Below are positions 3,724-15,741 of a DNA stretch of 64,000 nucleotides, one piece after another. The translations under genes were made by a program, and so were the position numbers. Every line of letters starts with the position of its first letter. Positions within the stretch are counted from its first letter, which is position 1. This DNA is from Planctomycetota bacterium (GTDB lineage: Bacteria > Planctomycetota > Phycisphaerae > Phycisphaerales > SM1A02): positions 1 to 64,000 of the forward strand of contig RFON01000003.1 of the NCBI GenBank assembly GCA_009926625.1. Reading direction: 5' to 3'. The notes below the pieces were generated by a model. That model was not told the origin of the DNA. It ran no database searches and saw only the letters and a program-made list of their open reading frames with translations.

Positions 3724-4839
3724 TCAGGGAATCATGGCCAACACGCTTTCAGCGGCTTGCCGAACCTGTGGATCTTCGTTGTCGTTGGCAGTGATGGACT
3801 TCAACGCCTGGCGCAGCGGATGCTGCGGGTCGGTTCGGAGGACATCCAACGCGCACCACACTGCGTTTCGCCTGGCTTGGATCGCACCAACCCGCGTCAG
3901 CGCGCTGACGCCCATCGCAGCGCGCCTCGAGCGTTGATCCCACTGAAGGACTTCGTGCAATTCGAACGCAGCGCTGCGCCCATCCCACGCTGGGTCGACC
4001 CCCCGCCGCCGCGATTGCCGCGTTGGTTGGTTGTGCGGACACACTTCCTGGCAGATGTCGCAGCCGAACAGCCAGTCGCCGGCCCTCGAAGCGACATCCA
4101 CTTCGGGCAGTGACCGCTGCTCGATGGTGATGGTCGTGATGCAGCGCGATGCATCAACACTCCACGGGGAGATCGCCGAGGTCGGACACGCATCGATGCA
4201 GCGCGTACAGGTGCCACAAGGATCCTGCGCAGCAGGCTGCGCCGTGGGTTGCAGCCGCGCGGTGGTGAAGTACGAGGCGAGCACGGTCCACGATCCAACA
4301 CCCTCGGTGATCAACAGGGTGTTCTTTCCGATGCGCCCGATGCCTGCACGCTCTGCGAGTTCCCGTTCCGGCACCGGCTCGATGTCGCAGCACACCTTTC
4401 CGCGGGTGCCGGGCAGGGCAGCCTCGAGTTCATGCTGCAGGATCCGAAGCCGCCGCTTCATCACACGGTGATAGTCCTCGCCGCGTGCGTAGCGCGCCAC
4501 GCGACCGCGCGGACTTCCCTCGACGGCATCCTTGCGCGCAGGCCGTTCATCTGGTCGTCCATCGTGATACCTCGCAGCCACGACAAGCACACTCTGCGTT
4601 CCTGGAACGATGCGCGCTGGATCAACCCGAACATCGAAGTGCGACAGCATCCAACGCATCGGCCCATGCCGGCCTTGTTCCAGCCAGGCGCGAAGTTCCG
4701 CACCACGCCGACTCGGCGAGGCATCGCAGACGCCCGCTGCGGCGAAGCCCAACTCGCGCGCCCTCGTCAGGCACCACTCAGTACAGCCACGGGGGTCGGT
4801 TGGAATCACTCGCGTACCGCCGCCTTGCATGGCGTTCAC
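3724..4839 (-). CDS. queG: Epoxyqueuosine reductase QueG
   Basis: A 371-residue cobalamin-dependent iron-sulfur enzyme that reduces epoxyqueuosine to queuosine in the wobble base of GUN tRNAs, the last step of the pathway. Family signatures are clear: ARYARGEDYH near residue 120, RAGIGRIGKNTLLI near 170, and two 4Fe-4S cysteine clusters, CGTCTRCIDACPTS and CDICQEVCPHNQP. The C-terminus has a HEAT-like helical tail as in characterised QueG. The GTG start at 4839 forms a 4-bp GTGA overlap with the stop of hpnE, so translation is likely coupled; ATG 4830 is an alternative. Its place at the end of a squalene operon appears to be passive operon membership. Confidence 0.93.
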   Translation of the reverse strand: MNAMQGGGTRVIPTDPRGCTEWCLTRARELGFAAAGVCDASPSRRGAELRAWLEQGRHGPMRWMLSHFDVRVDPARIVPGTQSVLVVAARYHDGRPDERPARKDAVEGSPRGRVARYARGEDYHRVMKRRLRILQHELEAALPGTRGKVCCDIEPVPERELAERAGIGRIGKNTLLITEGVGSWTVLASYFTTARLQPTAQPAAQDPCGTCTRCIDACPTSAISPWSVDASRCITTITIEQRSLPEVDVASRAGDWLFGCDICQEVCPHNQPTRQSRRRGVDPAWDGRSAAFELHEVLQWDQRSRRAAMGVSALTRVGAIQARRNAVWCALDVLRTDPQHPLRQALKSITANDNEDPQVRQAAESVLAMIP

Positions 4840-6242
4840 AGTCCGAGCCAGCGCGCCAGCGGCGCCGCGGGAACATCTGGCACAAGGGCGTCACCGCTCG
4901 GTTCGCCCGAGGCGCTCGGTACGGCCGCAGCCGCGAGGTAGCCGCTGCGAACCGCCCCTTCCATGGTGGCGGGCCAACCCGTTGCGCACCAATCGCCCGC
5001 GAGAAGGAGATTCTCCACGCCGCCGCGGATGCCATCCGGTCGTGCCGTCGGTCGCAGCGCATCGATGCCAGGCACGCCAGCAAAGGTGGCACGCTTCTCC
5101 TTCACCGCACGAAACGCAGCTGGCTGCAGCCCGCTCGCGCGCGGAAGTGCCCAGTGGACATCGCGCATCACGCGGTTGACGATTGTCTGCTCATCGAGAT
5201 CGACCCATGAATCAGCCGCGCTGATGACTGCATGCACTTGGTGACGACCCTGCGCATCCCGTTGCTTGCGGAACAACCACTGCGTGTCTCGACCCGGCAA
5301 GACAAGATGCGGCGTGTCCATGATCGGCGCATCAAAGGCCAGGTGCACCCCAAGGATTGGGCTGAACGCGATCTCATCCAGGCGCTTCAGTCGAACATCC
5401 GCTGCCACCAAGGCCGTGGAGCAAAGCTTTGCGAGTCGATCGGGTGGCACGGAAGCGATGACTGCGGATGCTTCGACCACGCCCTCGTCGGTCACCACCC
5501 CGGTCACGCGTCTCCCGTCATACGAGATGGCGAGGGCGCTGACACCAAGCCTCATCGCGCCCCCACGCGACTCGATGAACTGCTGTGCGGGGTCGTAGAG
5601 TTCCACGAGCGGACGAAGCGACAGCCCCATCACGGGGCTCCACGAATCCTGCAAGAATCCCGCCTGAAAGACATACATCGCAAGCGACGCTTCAGTCTTG
5701 CTGCACGGCATGTTGCAGGCGCTGACGACGACCGGCTCCCAGAAATGCGATCGAGCGCGCTCCGTCTGCCGCGTCTCATCGAGGAACTCGCCGAACGATC
5801 TTCCCTTCCAACGCGCTCGCCCCTCGCGGCCGAGCCGGATGAGGCGCCACATCGCGCGAGCGACCGCGCGCTTGTCCTCCTGCCGCAGAAATCGCATTCG
5901 CAGGAAGCTGCTCGTGAAATGCGCGGGTGCCGGCAATCGGCACGGGGTCATCTCGTCCGGATCACTCGGTGGATTCGCCCACCAAATGGTTCGGTGCCAT
6001 TCGATCATGTCCAGCACGCCGAGCCGACCGTACAGGTCAAGCAAGTTGGTGCAACTGCCCATCAGGACATGCTGGCAATTGTCGAGCATCTCGCCAGTGC
6101 GCGGATCGACGAAACTGGTAGCGCGCCCGCCGAGCTTTCGCTTCGATTCGAGAACGACGACCGACCGTCCTGCCTCGGCCAAACGCACTGCAGCGGCAAG
6201 TCCGGCGAGACCGCCACCGACGATGACGATCGGCGGTCCCAT
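4836..6242 (-). CDS. hpnE: Hydroxysqualene dehydroxylase HpnE
   Basis: A 468-residue FAD-dependent amine-oxidase-family protein. It starts with the dinucleotide-binding motif IVGGGLAGLAAAVRLAEAG and has the family's RKLGGRATSF and NCQHVLMGSCTNLLDLYG segments. It ends with the FAD-contact motif LLLAGDWCATGWPATMEGAVRSG (quoted in part: AGDWCATGWPATMEGA). In the HpnCDE pathway it converts hydroxysqualene to squalene with reduced flavin. The frame stays open far upstream, but ATG 6242 is the right start: it precedes the FAD motif directly and shares its A with the stop of hpnD (TGATG). Confidence 0.93.
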   Translation of the reverse strand: MGPPIVIVGGGLAGLAAAVRLAEAGRSVVVLESKRKLGGRATSFVDPRTGEMLDNCQHVLMGSCTNLLDLYGRLGVLDMIEWHRTIWWANPPSDPDEMTPCRLPAPAHFTSSFLRMRFLRQEDKRAVARAMWRLIRLGREGRARWKGRSFGEFLDETRQTERARSHFWEPVVVSACNMPCSKTEASLAMYVFQAGFLQDSWSPVMGLSLRPLVELYDPAQQFIESRGGAMRLGVSALAISYDGRRVTGVVTDEGVVEASAVIASVPPDRLAKLCSTALVAADVRLKRLDEIAFSPILGVHLAFDAPIMDTPHLVLPGRDTQWLFRKQRDAQGRHQVHAVISAADSWVDLDEQTIVNRVMRDVHWALPRASGLQPAAFRAVKEKRATFAGVPGIDALRPTARPDGIRGGVENLLLAGDWCATGWPATMEGAVRSGYLAAAAVPSASGEPSGDALVPDVPAAPLARWLGL

Positions 6243-7129
6243 CAGCGCACGCCCGAAAGACGCGCGCCAAGGATGACCAGCAACTTCTGCAGCTTCGGCA
6301 CGGAGACGCGGCATTGCACGACCCGCTCTGGGCGCGCGGCCATTCGCTCCAGCAACGCGCGGTACATGCCGGTCAGCCCGCGCAGCGTTGGTCGGCAGGA
6401 CGGCTCGATCAGTGAATCGAGCTGCGCACTTGCCTCGAATCGTTCCCGAGCCGCCGTGATCATGCCGTCCATGAGTCGGTGACAACGCGGTGGATCCTGC
6501 CAACGCAGCAGCGCGTCGACATCGATCCCCGCCGCGTCGAAATGATCCTGTGGAATGTAGACACGCCCCATTCGTGCATCTTCCGCCACATCGCGGATCA
6601 CGTTCACCAACTGGAACGCAACACCGCGTTCGGACGCGAGCACCAGTGCATCGGGGCTCTGGTATCCCCAGATTCGCACACACACCCGACCGACGGAACT
6701 GGCGACTTGCTCGCAGTACCGCCGCAAGTCCGCGCCATCCTGCAACCGCCGCGTTTGGAGATCCGCGATCTGTCCATCGATCATCGCTTCGAAATCCGAC
6801 GCATCAAGCGGATACGCACGCGCCACTGCCGCAAGCGCACGCCACAGGGACTTGGAGTCCCCCGCCTCGCCCGCGAGCGCGGCGCGCGTCTGCACACGGA
6901 ATGCGTGGATGCTGCGTGCCGCATCGCTTCCCGCCGATGCACCGTCAACGATGTCGTCGGCCTCGCGCATCCATGCGTAAATCGCGTACATCGCAGAGCG
7001 CTGCGGTTCAGGGGTCAGGCGGAGTCCCCAGTAGAAGTTCGCGGCGCGGGTTCGCGTCACCTCACGGCAGTACGCGACCGCATCACGAAGGTCATCGTGG
7101 AGAAGCAGTGTCCCTGCGGCTGCACTCAT
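6242..7129 (-). CDS. hpnD: Presqualene diphosphate synthase HpnD
   Basis: A 295-residue trans-isoprenyl diphosphate synthase-like enzyme that condenses two farnesyl diphosphates to presqualene diphosphate. The first Asp-rich motif is MREADDIVDG and the second is NVIRDVAEDARMGRVYIP; both bind the Mg-diphosphate. The C-terminal hydrophobic segment (KLQKLLVILGARLSG) fits membrane association. ATG 7129 is chosen because it begins just before the fold (TLLLHDDLRDAVAYCREV) and overlaps the hpnC stop as ATGA. It acts between farnesyl diphosphate and HpnC in squalene formation. Confidence 0.93.
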   Translation of the reverse strand: MSAAAGTLLLHDDLRDAVAYCREVTRTRAANFYWGLRLTPEPQRSAMYAIYAWMREADDIVDGASAGSDAARSIHAFRVQTRAALAGEAGDSKSLWRALAAVARAYPLDASDFEAMIDGQIADLQTRRLQDGADLRRYCEQVASSVGRVCVRIWGYQSPDALVLASERGVAFQLVNVIRDVAEDARMGRVYIPQDHFDAAGIDVDALLRWQDPPRCHRLMDGMITAARERFEASAQLDSLIEPSCRPTLRGLTGMYRALLERMAARPERVVQCRVSVPKLQKLLVILGARLSGVR

Positions 7130-8106
7130 GCGGCGCGCGGCTCCCTCCGCTGTGTCCGCACCGCCGAAGCGGCGCTCCACCGCGCCTGCAGGAGCAGTCG
7201 GATCTTGCTGAACGCAGTGAGTTTCGGACGCGCGAGGCATGTCTCGAAGTTCCACGACTCGATCAACTGCAGCGTCTGGACCCCGCCTTCGCGAAAGAGC
7301 CAGATCAATGGTCGATGCCTTGGTTGAAGCCGCTCGATCAACTCGCCGCCCCTCTCGAAGAGCGGCCAGGTGCGATCTACGAGGGATCGGATGGTTTCGC
7401 GGTACTCGCCGAGAAAGCTCCGATCCGGCGCGAATCCTCGCTGGCATGTCAGCGAGAGTCGCTCGACGAAGAGTTCCCCTCGCCAGCATTCGGCAGGAAG
7501 GTAGATGCGGTCACGCTCGAGGAGGTCGCGACGCACATCCTGCCAGTGGTTCACCAATTGGAGGCCCGTACAGATGGCATCGCTTGCAGCGAGCGACGCT
7601 TCGTCTCGCGCCTCATCGAGCAACATGAGCACGATGCGACCGACGGGATCCGCGCTGAGTCGGCAGTACCCGATGAGCTCATCCCATGTCGCGTACTGCG
7701 TGACCTTCTGATCCATCTCGAACGCTCGGATGAGGTCCAGAAACGGCTTCCGCGGCAGCGCGTGCCGCGCCACGACTGGCGCAAGGGCGGTGAACACTGG
7801 ATGAAACGACCGCCCAGTGCCCATCACCTCGGTCCCCTCGCGCCACCATGCAAGCAGTGAAGTCGCTTGCTCGCGCGATCCGCTCTCATCACCAAGATCA
7901 TCGGCGCAGCGGCAGAACGCATAGACCGCAGCAAAGTCGTCGTGCAGATGGCGTGGCACGAACCCGCTGAGCACGCTGAAATTCTCCCCGTGCCCGCGCG
8001 CGAGACGCAAGCACCACGCCTGCGCTTCCGCCAGTGTGCATGCGCAGTCCAGCCCCGGTCCATAGCGCCCAAGTTCAAGCGTGCGGTCGGCTTTCGTCGA
8101 TCCCAT
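7126..8106 (-). CDS. hpnC: Hydroxysqualene synthase HpnC
   Basis: A 326-residue squalene/phytoene synthase-family protein that converts presqualene diphosphate to hydroxysqualene. The Asp-rich motifs are FCRCADDLGDESG near residue 65 and LVNHWQDVRRDLLERDRIYLP near 185. It is the promoter-proximal gene of hpnC-hpnD-hpnE-queG. A TACCCT -10-like hexamer (8121-8116, minus strand) ends 9 nt before the ATG. Gene order and the separate hpnD and hpnE neighbours distinguish it from a phytoene synthase. No squalene-hopene cyclase is in the window, so the end product (hopanoid, sterol or squalene itself) is unknown. Confidence 0.92.
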   Translation of the reverse strand: MGSTKADRTLELGRYGPGLDCACTLAEAQAWCLRLARGHGENFSVLSGFVPRHLHDDFAAVYAFCRCADDLGDESGSREQATSLLAWWREGTEVMGTGRSFHPVFTALAPVVARHALPRKPFLDLIRAFEMDQKVTQYATWDELIGYCRLSADPVGRIVLMLLDEARDEASLAASDAICTGLQLVNHWQDVRRDLLERDRIYLPAECWRGELFVERLSLTCQRGFAPDRSFLGEYRETIRSLVDRTWPLFERGGELIERLQPRHRPLIWLFREGGVQTLQLIESWNFETCLARPKLTAFSKIRLLLQARWSAASAVRTQRREPRAA

Positions 8107-8115
8107 GCCATCGAG

Positions 8116-8121
8116 AGGGTA
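8116..8121 (-). promoter_or_regulatory. -10 element TACCCT of hpnCDE-queG
   Basis: On the minus strand TACCCT ends 9 nt before the hpnC ATG at 8106. It lies 25 bp from the divergent ispH -10, so both halves of the isoprenoid locus are driven from one short intergenic region. Confidence 0.4.
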
Positions 8122-8146
8122 CCGCAGAGTTCAAATGCGGCGCGGA

Positions 8147-8152
8147 TATGAT
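8147..8152 (+). promoter_or_regulatory. -10 element TATGAT of ispH
   Basis: TATGAT ends 9 nt before the ispH ATG at 8162. There is no clear Shine-Dalgarno between them, consistent with a near-leaderless transcript. Confidence 0.45.
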
Positions 8153-8161
8153 TGCTGGCAG

Positions 8162-9232
8162 ATGAAGATCATCCTGGCAAATCCGCGCGGCTTCTGTGCA
8201 GGCGTCTACATGGCGATCGATGTGGTCGATCAGCTCTTGGAAATCTGCCCCGACGAGCCGATCTTCGTCTATCACGAAATCGTCCACAACCGCCATGTTG
8301 TCCAGCGATTTCAGCGACGCGGCGTGCGCTTTGTCGAGTCCGTCGAGGAAGTGCCCGACGGTTCCATCGTGGTGTTCAGCGCGCATGGCGTGAGTCCGGA
8401 AGTCCGCCAACTTGCGAAGGCGAAGAAACTGCTTTCCGTTGATGCGACATGCCCGCTGGTCACCAAGGTTCATGCCGAGGCGATTCGCTACGCGCGCAAA
8501 GGCTTCCAGATCCTGTTGGTCGGCCATCGCCACCATCAGGAGGTCGTCGGCACGCTTGGCGAGGCTCCAGAGGTGATGCAGGTGGTCGAGAGTCCGGCCG
8601 ACATCCCCTCGCTGAAAGTGGACGATCCGGAGAAGCTCATCTACCTGACGCAGACCACCCTGTCGCTTGACGATGCAGGCGTCATCATCGAGGCGCTCAA
8701 GCGAGCATTCCCGCAGATCAAGGAACCGCCCGCAAGCGACATCTGTTATGCAACGACCAATCGTCAGATGGCCGTGCGTGCGATCGCCCCTCAGTGCGAT
8801 CTGGTCCTCGTCGTGGGCAGCGCAAACTCCTCGAACTCCGTTCGCCTCACGGAGATCGCCATGAACATGGGCACGCCGGCGCGGCTGATCGATGATCGCA
8901 GCGAGCTGAAGCGCGAGTGGTTCGTCGGTGTGCAAACACTCCTCGTGACCGCGGGAGCGAGCGCTCCGGAAGACTTGGTGCACGAACTGATCGAGGAACT
9001 CGTCCGCACGCATGGCGCCGAAGTGGAGCAGCACGATGTGCGGCATGAGGAAGTGGAGTTCGGCCTTCCAGGCAGCCTCAAGTCCCTGATGCGGGAACGT
9101 GGTATCGACCCAGAAGGTCGGCGAATCGTGCGAGGCGACGAGGGAAGTCGGTTGCGTGAGTGGTTCGGCGCCCACAACATCCCATTCCGCATCGTCGACC
9201 TCACGGTGCAGGGCACGGCGGTCGCGCCTTGA
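8162..9232 (+). CDS. ispH: 4-hydroxy-3-methylbut-2-enyl diphosphate reductase IspH
   Basis: A 356-residue 4Fe-4S enzyme, the last step of the MEP pathway, giving IPP and DMAPP. The three cluster cysteines are visible: NPRGFCAGV at the N-terminus, SVDATCPLVTKVH near residue 97, and DICYATTNRQ near 193. The SANSSNSVRL substrate-binding segment follows. ATG 8162 is chosen since MKIILANPRGFCAG is the family N-terminus; an upstream ATG at 8081 would invade hpnC. It is divergent from hpnCDE, which use its products after chain elongation. It is translationally coupled to rlmN. Confidence 0.96.
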   Translation: MKIILANPRGFCAGVYMAIDVVDQLLEICPDEPIFVYHEIVHNRHVVQRFQRRGVRFVESVEEVPDGSIVVFSAHGVSPEVRQLAKAKKLLSVDATCPLVTKVHAEAIRYARKGFQILLVGHRHHQEVVGTLGEAPEVMQVVESPADIPSLKVDDPEKLIYLTQTTLSLDDAGVIIEALKRAFPQIKEPPASDICYATTNRQMAVRAIAPQCDLVLVVGSANSSNSVRLTEIAMNMGTPARLIDDRSELKREWFVGVQTLLVTAGASAPEDLVHELIEELVRTHGAEVEQHDVRHEEVEFGLPGSLKSLMRERGIDPEGRRIVRGDEGSRLREWFGAHNIPFRIVDLTVQGTAVAP

Positions 9233-10437
9233 ACGACCAACGCGAGGGAAACGAGGACCGCGCGGAGGCAGCGGGTGAGCGCGCACAGCACCCACCGCAG
9301 CAGCACGGCGAGTCGCCCGAGACTGGGATCGACTGCGATGCGCCGCACTTCTTCAGCCTCCACCGCGATGCACTGCGCGAGTGGTGTGGCGAGCGGGGAA
9401 TGCAGCGCCACACGGCCGACCAGATCGTCGACTGGGTCTACCGAAAGGCGTGCGCGGATCCGCTGCAGATGACCAACCTCTCCAAGCGCAACCGCGAACT
9501 GCTCGCGCAATCGATGCGCTTCACGACGGCTCGGCGGATCGACCATCGCATCGCAACCGATGGAACGCAGAAGCTCCTGATGGCATGGGAACGCGGCGCG
9601 TCGAACACGGACCCTGCCTCGCTGCCGGTGCTGAACGCTGCGCCCGTTGCCTCGGGGCGACAGACGGAGTGCGTCATGATTCCCGCCGACCCGCGGCGCA
9701 CCGCGTGCATCTCAAGCCAGCTGGGCTGCCCCGTCGGCTGCCGCTTCTGCGCATCAGGCATCGGCGGGCTCGAAGGCAACCTCACTGCAGGACAGATCAT
9801 CGAACAGGTCTTTCACCTCTCCACGCTCGATGCAGTCGAGCGCATCTCCCATGTGGTGTTCATGGGTATGGGTGAACCGCTCGCGAATCTCGGCGCGGTG
9901 TCGGACGCCATCCGAGTCCTCCATGCCGAGTGGGGTTTCGGGATCAGTGCCCGCCGCATCACGGTCTCGACGGTCGGGCTTCCGACGGCGATTCGCCGCT
10001 TCTGCGACTTTGAACTTCCAGTCACGCTTGCGCTGAGCCTGCATGCACCGAATGACGAGATCCGCCGGAACATCATCCCCTGGGCTGATTTCAGCACGAT
10101 CGACGAGCTCCTCGATGCCTGCGACGAGTGGTTTCACAGAACGGGACGCGAGATCACGCTCGAATACATCCTGCTTGGCGGAGTCAACGACCGCGAGGAG
10201 CACGCTGCGGAGTTGGCTGAGCATGCACGGCGCATCCACGCGAATGTGAACCTGATTCGCTACAACGAAGTTCGGGGGATGCCCTTCCAGCGCCCCAACT
10301 CCGACAGCGTTCTTCGCTTCCAAGAGGTCCTCCGCGAGCGCGGCGTGAACACGCACATCCGTGCCAGCCGTGGACGGGACATTGCGGCTGCCTGCGGGCA
10401 GCTGAGGCATGAGCACGCGGCGGCTACTCGGCAGTGA
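9229..10437 (+). CDS. rlmN: 23S rRNA (A2503-C2)/tRNA methyltransferase RlmN
   Basis: A radical-SAM methyltransferase of about 402 residues that methylates C2 of A2503 in 23S rRNA and of A37 in some tRNAs. It has the CX3CX2C motif (CPVGCRFCASGIGG), HVVFMGMGEPLANL, ISARRITVSTVGL, LALSLHAPND, and ITLEYILLGGVND. The cysteine near the C-terminus (AAACGQL) is the methyl-accepting residue. No ATG lies before the conserved core. TTG 9229, overlapping the ispH stop as TTGA, is the most plausible start, giving a hydrophilic N-terminal extension of about 45 residues. Its 3' end overlaps the convergent neighbour by 14 bp. Confidence 0.94.
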   Translation: MNDQREGNEDRAEAAGERAQHPPQQHGESPETGIDCDAPHFFSLHRDALREWCGERGMQRHTADQIVDWVYRKACADPLQMTNLSKRNRELLAQSMRFTTARRIDHRIATDGTQKLLMAWERGASNTDPASLPVLNAAPVASGRQTECVMIPADPRRTACISSQLGCPVGCRFCASGIGGLEGNLTAGQIIEQVFHLSTLDAVERISHVVFMGMGEPLANLGAVSDAIRVLHAEWGFGISARRITVSTVGLPTAIRRFCDFELPVTLALSLHAPNDEIRRNIIPWADFSTIDELLDACDEWFHRTGREITLEYILLGGVNDREEHAAELAEHARRIHANVNLIRYNEVRGMPFQRPNSDSVLRFQEVLRERGVNTHIRASRGRDIAAACGQLRHEHAAATRQ

Positions 10438-13400
10438 CTGGCCGAACGATCGCACCGCTCTCCATCGCCAGTTGACGGACATCAGCATCCGTCATCGCAC
10501 GCAGCGTGCCAGCCATCGCTCCATCGTGCATGCGACGCGCCCATGCGATCCAGGTCGCGCTCCGTTCGGGCTCGCCAGCCGCCCGAGTCAGCAGGTCGGT
10601 CATCGTGTCGCGAAGCGCACGGCTTTGCAGATTGCCGCGCACTTGCAGCGGCACGAAAGGCCTCGTGAAACGCAGGATTCGGTCGGGCCAATCGCTCGAT
10701 CGGAACTCCACCACCCAGCGGTGCTCGCGGACACGCAACTCCAGTCGGTGCAGGTAGCGACGGCGAATCTCGTCGCCGCGCGCGAGCCGCACGCCGAGCG
10801 TCTCTCGGATGCGGTGGCTTTCGTCCACACTGGTCGTGAGCGTCCCGATGTACCAAAGGTCCCTGATCAGGAACGCCTCCGCGAGCGGCAGGATCGCAAG
10901 TCGCGGCAATTCAAGGGTCGGGTCGGCGCGGCACAGGTCCGTGATGGTCTCCGCGTAGCGAAGCGCATAGTCGAGCCCGCCCCACATCTCGCATCGACGC
11001 ATCGCGACGGCAAAGTCCTGCAGCGCTTCATGTCCGTGGCGAGTCGAAAGGAGCCCCGACAACTGCTGCAGCGCTGCACCCACGCGCCTTCGCATGCGCC
11101 GAGCATGCGTCCGCTCGCGGCGACTGCCGATCTGTCGCGCAGCAGTCGCCACACGCACAAGCCGAAGCAATGCGCGCTGCCCCGATCGGTCCGCATCGTC
11201 CACGGCCGCGCGAGATGTCGATGCTGTCGAGCCATCCCCCGCCCTCTGCAATCCAACCGCAATTCGACGACCCAGTTGAACCCCCTCGCGGACCGCCGCA
11301 ACACCCAACCCTTCGACATGCGCGATGCCCTGCTCGAATGCTTCGACCGAGAGCGGGATCCAACCGCGCTGAAACGCGATCCCAAGTGCGATCACATCGA
11401 CAGGCCGATCCGTGAGAAAGGTCGCGCGCGCCGCTTCGGCGAGGTCGATCAGGTCGGTGCGGCTGCTGTTGCATGTTGCTTCCACCACGGATGCAAGCTG
11501 CTTCGCCGTCCGACGGACCTGATCGGAAATCTGGTCATCAAGCGTTCCGCTGTTGGCCACGATTGCAGTGCGCGGCGGATCTGCAACCCGCAGCCGCAGG
11601 TCAGTGGCCAGCGCGCGAATGGTCTCGAGCGGATCGACGCCAATCACCAGGTCCGCCTCTCCGTACGGAATCTGCGTGGTGAAACGCTGTTCATGTGCTC
11701 GCGCCGACGGCTCGGTCGATTCAGGAGCGCTCGTCTCCCGCTGGGTGAACACCACCTGCGCCCAGGCGCTCCTGCCTGGACCAAGCGGTGTGCTGCGGTG
11801 CGTCCACGAAACATCGAAGCCCATGTGCCGCCCGGCCGCCGCAAGCAGCGCACCGACGACTCCTGGTGCATCGCCGCGATACCCACTGAGGTGCGCACGC
11901 CACAACCCTTGATCACCGTGGATCGGTTGTGGCACGGGCAGGCGGTCTCCCGTGCGAAGCGCATCGAGCCCAGGAGGTGGACGGGTGCGGATGATCTCCA
12001 CTTGCTCCAGCAGCGGCTCGAGCCGAAAGAAAACGCCGCGCGCGCCTGGCACGAGCGACCGAGTGACGAGCGGCTCCTGACGAAGCGGATCACTCCCGCG
12101 CAGCGATCCCCGGGCGATTTGTGCAGCCAATCCAGGATCGCGGAGATCGCAGGCATGATCGCCCGGCAAGATGAATCGCTGGAAGCGCAAGAACCCGTCG
12201 CGGTCCACCTCACGCGCCGTCCGCTCGAGCGCCGCCACATCGCGCCGCGGAGGCGGTCCGTCACGCGCGATCACCAGCGTGAGTGCATCCTGACCCGCGG
12301 CCGTCACAAGCGCATCACGCAGCGTTTCACTGTCGTTCACATCGAGCGTCACGACGCGCAGCCGCTGCTCACCCTCCGCACCCACGGCTGCGCGAGCCAA
12401 TCGTTCGACATCAATCCGCTCCGAGCCTCCAAAGTCCATGACCACAAAAACGCGGCGCATGCGATCCACCGATGCCTGCCGCAGGGCAAGAACGCCGTCG
12501 CGAAGGAAACGCTGCACCTGCCAATGCTCCACGACACAGGCACGAGCACCCGCACGGACACCTTGCCGACCACTGACGAGAGCGAAGGCATCGTCACCCT
12601 CCTGCGTTCGCTCGGCCAATTTGACATCCGCTTCATGAATCGCCGAGCGCAGCAGCCGCTCTGCCGACTCGACGCCGATGTCCTCGCCGCGCCTGCGGAC
12701 CTCCAAGGCTGCCAACGAAGCGGGAATCCGTGCGAGCCTGTCTTCCAGTTGAAGTCCAGGGCGCATCTCGTGCAGCAGTCGAATCACGCGGCGCGTCAGA
12801 AGGCTCGTGACCAGGGCGTCGTTCACGCCAAGCGGCTCGACATCCCCAGCCGCAGGCGGGAGGCGGCTCCACCACACGCGCGCGGAATCGCCTCCGGATG
12901 CTCGCAGCGCCTCGGCGGCAGCCACGATTCTCGGCGCCACGGAACCAGGGCGCGCCTCCAGGACCACCACATGATGGCAGCGTTCGAGAATTCGTCCCAC
13001 CGCCGCTTCATCAAGCGGCTCTGGCACACCAATCCCAAGCACGGGAACGCGCCCCGTCATGCCAAGTTCATCAAGCATGTGTCGCACCGACACAATGGCA
13101 GGACCGATGGCGATGAATCCGTACTGTTCGCGTTCACCTGGACTCGGCAAGTGCTCGACGCTGTTCAGTTCCAGCACGCGGATGATCCGAAGTGGATCCG
13201 CCGATTCTCCCGTTCGGGCGAGGCGGCGACGGCGCAGCCAGGCATCGTGATCGACGCGCGCGACGCGGCGGTTCGGCAGGGCATGCAGCGTTGCCCCCGA
13301 GCGAAGCACGGAGATGTGCGCCACCAGGACCGCGGGTCGGCGCGTCGCACGGGTCAGGCGGAGCGCCACATCGCAGCCACTCCGAAGCCCATCCACATCG

Positions 13401-13909
13401 GCCGCCTCGATGGCAGTGAGTCCCGCACGACGACACACGCGCCGCGGACAGGTCGTCGGCACCGCAATGGGATGGTCCTCAAGCACGAGCACGATGCCTC
13501 CGCCCTCGCTGAGGGGCAGTCGTCCGATCTCCTCCATCTGACCCACCAGTCCGTCCAGTTCATCATTGGGAATGAGCACCACACTCCGTCGCCCGCGCGC
13601 CGACTCCTGCGCAGCAAGTTCGAGTGCGCGCGAACCACTCACCACACTGGTGACATCGAGCGCATTGCGCTCAAGGACCGCCATGGAGCCCGCATCCGCA
13701 GCCGCGGCGATGACCGCCTCGAAGGGCGGACACCGCACCACAATGAGCCGATGGACATCCAACTCTGCCTCAAGGAGTCCTTTGAGGAGTGCCTGCGCAG
13801 CGGAAAAGAGCGCCGCACCATCCACGAGATCGAGTGGCGAACGAGAACTGTCTGCGAGGACCTGCGCGGCCGCCTCGCGTGAAGCTCGCGCGTCTTCCAC
13901 CGCATCCAT
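10424..13909 (-). CDS. Degenerate indolepyruvate/2-oxoacid:ferredoxin oxidoreductase-like protein (DUF6537 architecture)
   Basis: A 1161-residue multidomain protein resembling the fused IorA/IorB family. Residues about 20-390 match the pyrimidine-binding half of IorA (VVSGSRALELAAQES, GIVLVLEDHP, FIAIGPAIVSVRHML). Residues about 430-560 align with the TPP half (FVVMDFG then TLDVNDSETLRDALV and LTLVIAR). Residues about 670-850 are the gamma subunit (GVVGALLAAAGRHMGFDV, PLGPGRSAWAQVVF, IPYGEADLVIGVDPLETIRA). The tail (FQRGWIPLSVEAFEQGI onward) is DUF6537-like. The CXGCPH, GDG...N TPP and 4Fe-4S cysteine motifs expected of active IORs are not visible; RDG replaces GDG. It may be a catalytically altered or dead paralogue. 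It is monocistronic, with TACCAT 8 nt before its start. Confidence 0.7.
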   Translation of the reverse strand: MDAVEDARASREAAAQVLADSSRSPLDLVDGAALFSAAQALLKGLLEAELDVHRLIVVRCPPFEAVIAAAADAGSMAVLERNALDVTSVVSGSRALELAAQESARGRRSVVLIPNDELDGLVGQMEEIGRLPLSEGGGIVLVLEDHPIAVPTTCPRRVCRRAGLTAIEAADVDGLRSGCDVALRLTRATRRPAVLVAHISVLRSGATLHALPNRRVARVDHDAWLRRRRLARTGESADPLRIIRVLELNSVEHLPSPGEREQYGFIAIGPAIVSVRHMLDELGMTGRVPVLGIGVPEPLDEAAVGRILERCHHVVVLEARPGSVAPRIVAAAEALRASGGDSARVWWSRLPPAAGDVEPLGVNDALVTSLLTRRVIRLLHEMRPGLQLEDRLARIPASLAALEVRRRGEDIGVESAERLLRSAIHEADVKLAERTQEGDDAFALVSGRQGVRAGARACVVEHWQVQRFLRDGVLALRQASVDRMRRVFVVMDFGGSERIDVERLARAAVGAEGEQRLRVVTLDVNDSETLRDALVTAAGQDALTLVIARDGPPPRRDVAALERTAREVDRDGFLRFQRFILPGDHACDLRDPGLAAQIARGSLRGSDPLRQEPLVTRSLVPGARGVFFRLEPLLEQVEIIRTRPPPGLDALRTGDRLPVPQPIHGDQGLWRAHLSGYRGDAPGVVGALLAAAGRHMGFDVSWTHRSTPLGPGRSAWAQVVFTQRETSAPESTEPSARAHEQRFTTQIPYGEADLVIGVDPLETIRALATDLRLRVADPPRTAIVANSGTLDDQISDQVRRTAKQLASVVEATCNSSRTDLIDLAEAARATFLTDRPVDVIALGIAFQRGWIPLSVEAFEQGIAHVEGLGVAAVREGVQLGRRIAVGLQRAGDGSTASTSRAAVDDADRSGQRALLRLVRVATAARQIGSRRERTHARRMRRRVGAALQQLSGLLSTRHGHEALQDFAVAMRRCEMWGGLDYALRYAETITDLCRADPTLELPRLAILPLAEAFLIRDLWYIGTLTTSVDESHRIRETLGVRLARGDEIRRRYLHRLELRVREHRWVVEFRSSDWPDRILRFTRPFVPLQVRGNLQSRALRDTMTDLLTRAAGEPERSATWIAWARRMHDGAMAGTLRAMTDADVRQLAMESGAIVRPVTAE

Positions 13910-13917
13910 GGTGCGCG

Positions 13918-13923
13918 ATGGTA
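13918..13923 (-). promoter_or_regulatory. -10 element TACCAT of the IOR-like gene
   Basis: On the minus strand TACCAT ends 8 nt before ATG 13909. It fits the window-wide near-leaderless pattern. Confidence 0.35.
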
Positions 13924-13939
13924 ATCCACCGCGCAGCGA

Positions 13940-14815
13940 TCAGGCTTCCCGCAACAGGCGGTCCACCACCCACGCAATTGCATCTGCATCGTTGCTTGGT
14001 GCAGTTTCGTTGGCGTACACGGCGACATCAGGCATGGCATTTGCCACGGCGAACGAAAGTCGCGAGTTCCGAAGCATGCCGATGTCATTCAGTCCATCGC
14101 CGACGGTCGCGACCATTCCCTCGTCGATGCCCAGCATCGTGCAGAGCCGCTGCACCATCGTCCACTTGTCGACCGCCGCGTCGAAAATCTCCAGCAGGTG
14201 CGTGTCTGCGCCGGCCTTCCCCGCAGAGACGAGCGCAGGCCAATGCTTGATGGACAATCGTTCGGGCACCTCTCGAAGCAGCGCAGCGGTGACCTCGCCC
14301 AACTCCGACTTGTGCGCCACCGTGCCGACGCGCAGGACATGCGCAAGCTGCGTGTGCCGCTCATCCGCATCGGCCGCGAGCACTGCCAGCGAGCGCGTTG
14401 ACACAGGATGGATATCGAACCACCAGCGGCTTGCTGCATCCAGTTCACGGTCCCCCACGAGCAGATAGTCGTAACCGCTCAACGAGGCATCCTTCAGGAG
14501 GTGTGCGAGATGCCCATGCATCAGGAGGCTCTCGGTGCAGTGGTGAACCAAGTCATGCGAAATGGTGATGCGGTCCTCGCAGCGACCCGATGCGATGTCA
14601 TGCAGCGCGGCTCCCCCAGCCGTGATGATTCGCCCCTCACCGAGGATGGTCTGCGCGATCGATCGGCACTCGAGCCATGATCGTCCAGTGGCGAACACCA
14701 CTTCGATCCCTGCATCACGCGCACGAGCGATGGCGTGCCGATTGCGCTCCGAGGCGCGACCCTCGCTGTCGAGCAGTGTGCCGTCGAGGTCGCTCACCAG
14801 CATTCGCATGGGCAT
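13940..14815 (-). CDS. Cof-type HAD-IIB family sugar/flavin phosphatase
   Basis: A 291-residue haloacid-dehalogenase phosphatase. Motif I is LVSDLDGTLLDSEG with the nucleophile and acid/base Asp pair. Motif II is VVFATGRSW. The Lys is in the DAAVDKWTMVQ region, and motif IV is VATVGDGLNDIGMLRNS. The roughly 100-residue insertion between motifs II and III is the type C2B cap of the Cof family. Substrates in this family are usually phosphosugars or pyridoxal/flavin phosphates; this one cannot be assigned. It is divergent from the gene at 14848, and their -10 hexamers overlap. Confidence 0.85.
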   Translation of the reverse strand: MPMRMLVSDLDGTLLDSEGRASERNRHAIARARDAGIEVVFATGRSWLECRSIAQTILGEGRIITAGGAALHDIASGRCEDRITISHDLVHHCTESLLMHGHLAHLLKDASLSGYDYLLVGDRELDAASRWWFDIHPVSTRSLAVLAADADERHTQLAHVLRVGTVAHKSELGEVTAALLREVPERLSIKHWPALVSAGKAGADTHLLEIFDAAVDKWTMVQRLCTMLGIDEGMVATVGDGLNDIGMLRNSRLSFAVANAMPDVAVYANETAPSNDADAIAWVVDRLLREA

Positions 14816-14827
14816 TTGATTGCAAAA

Positions 14828-14837
14828 ATGCTACACT
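14828..14837. promoter_or_regulatory. Overlapping divergent -10 elements (TAGCAT / TACACT)
   Basis: ATGCTACACT holds TACACT on the plus strand (14832-14837, ending 10 nt before ATG 14848). It also holds TAGCAT on the minus strand (14833-14828, ending 12 nt before ATG 14815). The two hexamers share one TA step. One polymerase at a time could open this site, giving a simple bidirectional promoter. Confidence 0.45.
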
Positions 14838-14847
14838 TCGAAGCCTC

Positions 14848-15741
14848 ATGGATCGCAAACGGCTCGCCAATGTGCAACAGTCCGACCTCACCGAGAGTCG
14901 GATCAATGACGACTTCCTGTACTGGCTGAAGAACAGCGGTCCGAATTGGCTGCTCGCGGTGCTCGTGGTGCTTTGCCTCGCGATGGGGTGGAACTGGTGG
15001 AAGAACAAGCAAGGTCAGGCCCGCGATGCCGCCTGGAGCGAACTTTCCGATGCGGACATTCCCGCCTCCCTCCGCGATGTCGCGGCGAAGCATGGCGATG
15101 TCGATGGAGTCGCATCGCTCGCGCTGCTCTCCGCGGCAGACCGCTACCTGCAGAGCGTGGTCAGCGGGCAACGCTTCGACCGTGAGGCCAGCGCGGCCGA
15201 TGCTGCGGTGACGCCTGAACTGCGCAGGGAATGGCTGCTGGAGGCGCGAACGCTCTACAGCGAAGTGCTGGCGCGCGCCGAGGCATCGAACGATGCGAAT
15301 GCGGTCTCGTTCGAAGTTGCTGCGCTGTTTGGGCTCGCAGCGGTTGCCGAGTCGCGCGGCGAAGTTGATACGGCGAAGTCGTCGCTCGAGCGGATCGATT
15401 CCAAGACATCGGAGAGCCATCCGTGGATCTCCAAGCAAGCGAAGGCACGCATCGCCACAATCGCCCTCGTGTCGTCGCCCTATCAGATTCCCGATGCGCC
15501 GATGCCGCAGGGAATGCTGCCGGATGGAACGCGATTCAACTTGCCGACGGGTGCATCGGTCACCGATCAGGAGGCGATGCGCGCGCTCATCGGCGGCCTT
15601 CAGGGTGCCGCGTCGACGCCAGCCTCAGACCAGCCGATCGCGCCGACACCAGCCGGTCAGCCAGATTCATCGGCCCCAGCGCCATCTGCTCCAGCGCCAT
15701 CGAGCCCCGCGGGATCGAGTGGCGATGCCCCAAAGCCCTGA
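14848..15741 (+). CDS. Single-pass membrane protein with TPR-like periplasmic domain (YfgM-like)
   Basis: A 297-residue protein with a cytosolic N-terminus (MDRKRLANVQQSDLTESRIN) and one transmembrane helix at about 31-51 (GPNWLLAVLVVLCLAMGWNW). It has an Ala-rich helical domain resembling the TPR-like region of YfgM/BamD-type proteins (LLEARTLYSEVLARAEA, GLAAVAESRGEVDTAKSSLERI). The Pro/Ser/Ala-rich tail is probably disordered. ATG 14848 is used because the longer open frame runs into the divergent HAD gene and the promoter. It is followed after 6 bp by the pseudouridine synthase gene. A chaperone-like or envelope-assembly role is inference from architecture only. Confidence 0.6.
   Translation: MDRKRLANVQQSDLTESRINDDFLYWLKNSGPNWLLAVLVVLCLAMGWNWWKNKQGQARDAAWSELSDADIPASLRDVAAKHGDVDGVASLALLSAADRYLQSVVSGQRFDREASAADAAVTPELRREWLLEARTLYSEVLARAEASNDANAVSFEVAALFGLAAVAESRGEVDTAKSSLERIDSKTSESHPWISKQAKARIATIALVSSPYQIPDAPMPQGMLPDGTRFNLPTGASVTDQEAMRALIGGLQGAASTPASDQPIAPTPAGQPDSSAPAPSAPAPSSPAGSSGDAPKP

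Follow-up and report, generated by a model that had tools for sequence, protein, structure and literature searches.

What becomes of a large protein that keeps the build of a fused oxidoreductase and loses the residues that hold its cofactors? This question is raised by a gene in a stretch of 64,000 nucleotides from a Planctomycetota bacterium of the order Phycisphaerales (assembly GCA_009926625.1, contig RFON01000003.1, positions 1 to 64,000), the whole of which is called the window here. The gene lies on the minus strand at 10424–13909, with its ATG at 13909 and the end of its stop codon at 10424, and encodes 1161 amino acids without an internal stop, which confirms the preliminary description of a long, intact gene. 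From the open reading frame (ORF), the NCBIfam matches and hhalign, the product was designated pseudo-IOR, for a protein predicted to have no cofactor and to derive from fused indolepyruvate:ferredoxin oxidoreductase (IOR). It almost certainly represents a retained pseudoenzyme lineage and not a decaying relic. The genome of the window (G000; 2.58 Mb, 91% complete) contains one copy. In the following, f1 denotes the window's own family, f3–f6 other families, g19, g34, g40 and g47 genera, and G and L numbers denote genomes and loci; forms without the cofactor sites are called dead.

Homology to fused IOR and the lost cofactor sites

Judged by its sequence, pseudo-IOR is a full-length descendant of fused IOR. 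Over residues 736–953 the window protein matched two NCBIfam models, PRK13029 with E 1e-12 and PRK13030 with E 1.4e-12, and over residues 259–320 it matched IOR_alpha (E 0.0017). The family cut-offs were not reached (46.8 of 952 bits for PRK13029 and 46.2 of 816 bits for PRK13030), and the fused IORs L056 and L060 likewise stayed under the cut-off (464.5 and 322.1 of 816 bits), so that the score does not separate dead from intact forms. When 18 f1 sequences were aligned by hhalign with seven fused IORs, one of which (L060) is partly eroded, the two groups matched with a probability of 100% and E 3e-104 over 1085 columns at 22% identity, and the domain order of the fused IOR family was found in the window protein over these columns. 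L056 is an intact fused IOR from the window's order, and such proteins align end to end with the window family; the window protein is 75 amino acids shorter than L056. TPP_enzyme_C, POR and DUF6537 were all matched by L056 and L060, the two fused IORs that were scanned. Fused IORs of about 1230–1280 amino acids are carried by f5 genomes and by several f6 genomes. The IOR/DUF6537 architecture of the preliminary description is supported by the NCBIfam matches and hhalign; among the profile models, PRK13029, PRK13030 and IOR_alpha matched, but the Pfam scan of the window protein gave no hit at E ≤ 1, PF01558 and DUF6537 included. A phmmer search of the PDB with the window protein returned a single irrelevant match (E 0.77). 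Homology to an unrelated family was ruled out by hhalign and by the fold matches given below.

Enzymes of this group activate thiamine diphosphate (TPP) with a Glu and bind Mg at its pyrophosphate through a GDG motif and an Asn, as described in the Sulfolobus tokodaii report (PMC5020499). In the aligned catalytic columns of 31 f1 rows, the catalytic Glu and the Mg-binding Asn were each present in 0/31 and the GDG Asp in 1/31. CPGCPH and GDxGC corresponded to a gap in all 31 rows, and six of the seven ferredoxin-type Cys columns contained no Cys in any of them. In 16/16 typical intact rows none of these residues is missing: the rows have the Glu, the Asp, the Asn, CPGCPH with its His and its two Cys, GDTGC with its Asp and its Cys, and all seven ferredoxin-type Cys. 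Five motif patterns were each found in 0/43 f1, 0/6 f4 and 0/4 g34 loci; among 21 intact-type sequences CxGCx(H/Q) occurred in all 21, and the other four patterns in 17–21. All 43 f1 genes that were read are dead forms, and none of the genes is an intact fused copy. The loss of the TPP and iron-sulfur motifs, as first noticed in the window, is therefore confirmed by the catalytic columns of the 31 f1 rows. On the other hand, the RDG triplet had been taken for the counterpart of GDG, and this had to be abandoned: the triplet at residues 470–472 lies opposite HSG, downstream of GDG, the one at residues 549–551 lies opposite the DKE of ADKECGI, and neither of them is invariant in f1. The gamma motifs are also altered, with GYRGDAPG in place of GVGGMGIG and PGRSAWAQ in place of RNGGVFSQ.

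The regions of the protein are described here from the N-terminus onwards. Residues 33–207 (13289–13813, minus strand, as for all regions of the protein) form a TPP pyrimidine-domain fold with the catalytic Glu replaced, and the model aligned with 9u8q_F at Z 19.3 and a root-mean-square deviation (rmsd) of 2.1 over 159 residues. Residues 236–400 (12710–13204), which we take to be the counterpart of IOR-alpha domain III, are the most constrained part; they include the IOR_alpha match, have the lowest ratio of nonsynonymous to synonymous substitution rates (dN/dS) and have many columns in common with intact IORs. Residues 406–440 (12590–12694) mark approximately where the TPP-pyrophosphate domain has lost its CPGCPH...GDTGCY segment. 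The remnant of this domain, with E461, occupies residues 441–555 (12245–12589) and has an alpha/beta pattern in the model; AHAS-type structure alignments extend to residue 555, but at about 32 Å rmsd over several domains. The former ferredoxin-type cysteine region is at residues 586–634 (12008–12154). Residues 669–887 (11249–11905) have a POR-gamma fold: the gamma subunit of 3on3 aligned with the first model at Z 16.9 and with a second, C-terminal model at Z 17.8 (rmsd 2.6, 165 aligned). PF01558 had no match in the window protein, and the pseudo-IOR of G035 exceeds its cut-off. The helical C-terminal region (residues 900–1150, 10460–11212) is DUF6537-like, as it aligned with the DUF6537 region of L056 and L060. 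DUF6537 (PF20169) was matched at the pseudo-IOR locus in 5/37 f1 genomes, with two exceeding the cut-off, and the f1 relative L049 scored 29.7 bits against a cut-off of 27. VIA-align of this region found designed helical proteins with Z up to 10.6, which may reflect only a common helical arrangement, and no natural relative stood out in it.

A plus-strand ORF at 10409–13882 (1157 amino acids), which stays open along the entire pseudo-IOR gene, was also considered as the gene and was rejected; it had no Pfam hit. Among 18 genes examined, an antisense frame of such length (1151 amino acids) was seen only in the window gene. The longest antisense frame was 341–497 amino acids in its three closest relatives, and the largest elsewhere was 851 amino acids in L021.

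Retention, selection and descent

The window protein as a query matched 51/61 relatives, among them 36/37 f1 genomes with one match each; the f1 matches were 32–87% identical to the window protein (its own excluded), and the exception, G032, is 72% complete. Searches with intact L056 as the query took in 301 genomes from the order and 248 from the class, and 114/117 f1 genomes matched, weakly; the three f1 genomes without a match are those among the genomes listed, in order of kinship with f1 first. The best f1 score was 231 bits, whereas the best pieces scored 523–2870 bits in the order's 14 loci that were judged to be intact or partly eroded. One of the three f1 genomes without an L056 match, G279, has a fragment by the window-protein query, and this query gave no match in the other two, G271 and G293. 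Beyond the order, full-length L056 matches were 48–64% identical among the matches listed, and L075–L081, from outside the order, are intact. Across the phylum, the window protein matched 8/294 genomes, all in its own class, in a first-pass search that may miss distant forms.

The gene is retained under purifying selection across f1. Its frame is open in 43/43 f1 loci, one of them cut by a contig end. The dN/dS values were 0.07–0.11 in the six pairs of the four closest genomes (L001–L004), as the preliminary description would have it in calling the gene selected, and 0.08–0.16 in six other same-genus pairs; close f4 pairs gave 0.08–0.11 and g47 gave 0.05. In the three pairs split by domain, the lowest values (0.03–0.06) were in domain III. 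New constraint has also arisen. In 29 core f1 rows, E461, D569, R678, R94 and D838 are present in 29/29 and R713 in 28/29, and intact relatives differ at each of these positions; R678 is at the former glycine loop of the gamma domain and R713 in the former RNGG loop. A decaying relic, one of the options first considered, is contradicted by purifying selection together with these near-invariant f1 residues, and the protein has probably been repurposed.

The dead forms of f1, f4 and the f6 genus g34 formed one clade, with support of 99/99 under LG+F+G4 and 95/90 under the C20 posterior mean site frequency (PMSF) model, and the clade was present in 92% of 200 bootstrap trees of the latter. It adjoins the f6 sequences L083, L084, L085 and L060, in which the TPP-motif residues are altered to varying degrees and all seven Fe-S cysteines are kept. 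The trees were built from 868 columns, with the TPP and Fe-S columns excluded; the LG+F+G4 tree had 60 rows and the C20 PMSF tree 35 of these, without g47. L031–L048 (duplicates of L002–L019), 14 near-copies or partial rows and L088 were left out. Several branches within f1 were unresolved in the trees. In g34, the length of the TPP domain is kept and every tabulated ligand is substituted; in f4, GDxGC is gone in 5/5 rows and CPGCPH in 4/5. In f1, as in f4, the segment is gone. Taken together, these states suggest that the TPP/Mg ligands were lost first, then the Fe-S cysteines and finally, by deletion, the segment, on a topology that is uncertain through long branches.

A ketosynthase gene starts divergently beside all four dead genes of g34, and likewise beside intact or eroded L059, L073, L082 and L085; at L074 it is 2 kb away. 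Since the intact f6 IORs have this same neighbour, the dead gene of g34 occupies the original locus and did not arise as an additional paralogue. The f1 locus is elsewhere, between genes that we take to be RlmN/IspH-like and TPR/RluD-like. We read the pseudoenzyme as inherited vertically as a single copy and derived from the fused IOR of Phycisphaerales. A pseudoenzyme this large has, to our knowledge, seldom been found as a gene that nearly all members of a lineage carry once. Within one order there are sequences whose cofactor sites are intact, others in which the sites are partly eroded and others in which they are lost entirely, which opens the succession of losses to study.

In G051 (f4; L069:3784-7798), the dead IOR is in two overlapping frames before the DUF6537 part, by a frameshift, a sequencing error or gene fission.

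Neighbouring genes and the proposed role

A gene for a Cof-type HAD-IIB phosphatase is located just upstream on the same strand (13940–14815, minus); it matched PF08282 with E 2e-39, exceeded the cut-off of HAD-SF-IIB and scored 119.5 of 137 bits against TIGR00099. Its stop is separated from the ATG of pseudo-IOR by 30 bp, and the two genes are probably co-transcribed, which is likelier than the separate promoter proposed at first; a scan for the sigma-70 consensus over 13700–15000 found no site, which is not decisive. The HAD gene adjoins pseudo-IOR on the same strand in 39/43 f1 loci, including the most divergent genus, g47. On the other side, a convergent ORF on the plus strand (9160–10437), presumably RlmN-like, overlaps the stop of pseudo-IOR with its end and serves as a synteny marker conserved beside f1 loci. 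Beyond it, squalene-synthesis-like genes, which we assume to be of the HpnC, HpnD and HpnE types, and an IspH-like gene lie at 4836–9232 of the window, as they do in many f1 loci with long flanks.

We favor the explanation, at a probability of about 0.6, that pseudo-IOR is an IOR-derived pseudoenzyme that now serves, without cofactors, to bind a ligand or as a scaffold. Such a protein would be incapable of TPP-dependent oxidative decarboxylation or of electron transfer. The old scaffold of domain III and the gamma domain, whose glycine and RNGG loops now carry R678 and R713, would bind an anionic metabolite, perhaps phosphorylated or CoA-linked, and would control the HAD phosphatase encoded just upstream or hand the metabolite to it. 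A new role, as raised in the preliminary description, survives as a reading, and its identity is a matter of prediction: the HAD-coupled ligand-binding role in f1 is proposed only tentatively. It is conceivable, with similar reserve, that the whole family and two related lineages, perhaps by the same ancestral event, made from a large TPP/Fe-S oxidoreductase a protein devoid of cofactors that has gained a site for catalysis or for a ligand (the loop arginines and E461), partnered with HAD in f1 and kept almost universally.

Several observations weigh against this explanation. The dead clade sits on long branches, and f1 including g47 had support of only 75.9/49. Higher dN/dS values were obtained in f1 (0.16 and 0.26), f4 (0.25) and g34 (0.35–0.39), with 0.24 in one intact pair; dS was near or above 1 in most pairs, the ratios of distant pairs approached saturation and for one pair no dS was obtained. 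The 43 f1 loci read, one per genome, cover only some of the 114 matches. R678 and D838 persist in the two divergent g47 rows, which have Ser for R94, Trp for R713 and a gap at the E461 column. The remaining ferredoxin-type Cys column (C587 of the window protein) is still Cys in 25/31 f1 rows. The full-length AlphaFold model is weak (mean predicted local distance difference test score (pLDDT) 62.3, predicted template modelling score (pTM) 0.31), so that the domain packing is only modelled; the C-terminal part alone gave pLDDT 62.5 and pTM 0.45. An adjoining HAD gene was not found in 4/43 f1 loci, namely L024 (with 0.7 kb of upstream sequence), L022 (1.5 kb, with another ORF there), and L049 and L053 (2.8–3.6 kb). 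The f4 neighbours (L062, L065, L069) are ORFs that we presume to be Rho-like and McsA/B-like, and a fusion of 2-oxoacid dehydrogenase E1, a lipoyl domain and ketoacyl-ACP synthase III (E1-lipoyl-KASIII) lies downstream of all four dead genes of g34. Because the neighbours differ between the dead lineages, the HAD partner cannot be general.

The main rival is a new enzyme, in which the IOR scaffold would have evolved an active site that works without TPP (candidate residues E461, D569, E751, R678 and R713) and would act with the HAD phosphatase in a two-step pathway. It is consistent with the near-invariant polar residues specific to f1 in the gamma domain and in what remains of the pyrophosphate domain, with purifying selection over the whole length and with the adjacent phosphatase gene. 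However, no recognised catalytic motif of another family was found in the Pfam and NCBIfam scans of the window protein, a shared pocket for the candidate residues would be conjecture with so weak a model, and g47 has neither E461 nor R713. We consider a new enzyme rather unlikely.

Less likely still, pseudo-IOR may be a subunit without catalysis of its own that pairs with the half of another 2-oxoacid:ferredoxin oxidoreductase in which the cofactors reside, as the preliminary description allowed. The POR-gamma fold is kept, six f1 genomes (G022, G025, G026, G029, G030 and G036) have a further POR-gamma match, and G302 has a separate fusion of the IOR alpha-GltD type; but 31/37 f1 genomes, the window's included, have no POR-gamma match outside pseudo-IOR, with alpha and beta subunits not searched separately, and the PF01558 search of G000 found no match. 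A borrowed cofactor is thus improbable as a general answer. A structural relic in the course of being lost, or a gene without function, would fit the lost enzyme motifs, the shorter frames of g47, g40 and g19 (1037–1078 amino acids from stop to stop) and the lack of a match in 3/117 f1 genomes, one of them with a fragment; it is made very improbable by the low dN/dS of the four closest genomes, the close f4 pairs and g47 and by the frames open in all f1 loci read. That the protein is still a TPP enzyme with unorthodox motifs is hardly credible: the pyrimidine-domain fold is retained, but the window protein has other residues in place of the catalytic Glu, the GDG Asp and the Mg Asn, whose roles are those described in PMC5020499, and it has lost the CPGCPH-GDTGC part by deletion.

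Further genes were observed around these loci. In L068:7279-10722 (P0003) and its relatives L070, L071 and L072, one polypeptide combines the E1 alpha and beta parts, the lipoyl domain and KASIII, which suggests direct acyl-starter transfer to fatty-acid or polyketide synthesis. Some match to it was found in 60/61 relatives, often to the E1 or KASIII part alone, and E1 and KASIII were spanned in one frame only in G041, G053 and G057 among the matches listed. We considered and rejected the fusion as a replacement for the lost IOR reaction; with its one-frame form so limited, it does not explain f1. The ketosynthase gene, identified by Pfam at L073:9042-10448, has tblastn homologues in L059, L068, L070–L072, L074, L082, L085 and L067, near intact and dead IOR genes, and this proximity hints that intact IOR supplies acyl-CoA starters. 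Alongside pseudo-IOR, G302 (f1) encodes a fusion (L088:2623-6147) in which an intact IOR alpha subunit is joined with a GltD-like protein of the NAD(P)-binding, 4Fe-4S type.

Comparison with known systems

No description of such a pseudo-IOR form was found among the papers listed in searches of the open-licence PMC literature, and none of the listed papers on IOR dealt with DUF6537. Annotation as an indolepyruvate ferredoxin oxidoreductase would credit genomes with a reaction that is not expected of the protein. The dead homologues of f4 (L062–L066 and L069) and g34 (L068 and L070–L072) have the same losses and belong to the same clade as f1, but their neighbours are other genes. EdcC of Novosphingobium tardaugens was assigned to the IOR family by its authors, and in that report 2-oxoacid decarboxylation was proposed for it and its deletion impaired growth on estradiol (PMC7793797); it is likened to pseudo-IOR by description and not by sequence. 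The 2-oxoacid:ferredoxin oxidoreductases of Sulfolobus tokodaii share the gamma fold (5b46; Z 14.9, rmsd 3.3, 179 aligned), but unlike pseudo-IOR they contain TPP and a [4Fe-4S] cluster, bind Mg through GDG and Asn and have the catalytic Glu, as described in their report (PMC5020499). The closest comparison is with the fused IOR family (PRK13029/PRK13030), represented by L056 and its relatives in the same order and class: the domain order is alike, whereas the TPP/Mg residues, CPGCPH-GDTGC and the Fe-S cysteines are lost in pseudo-IOR. It is a variant of this known family, and its annotation as a functional IOR should be avoided.

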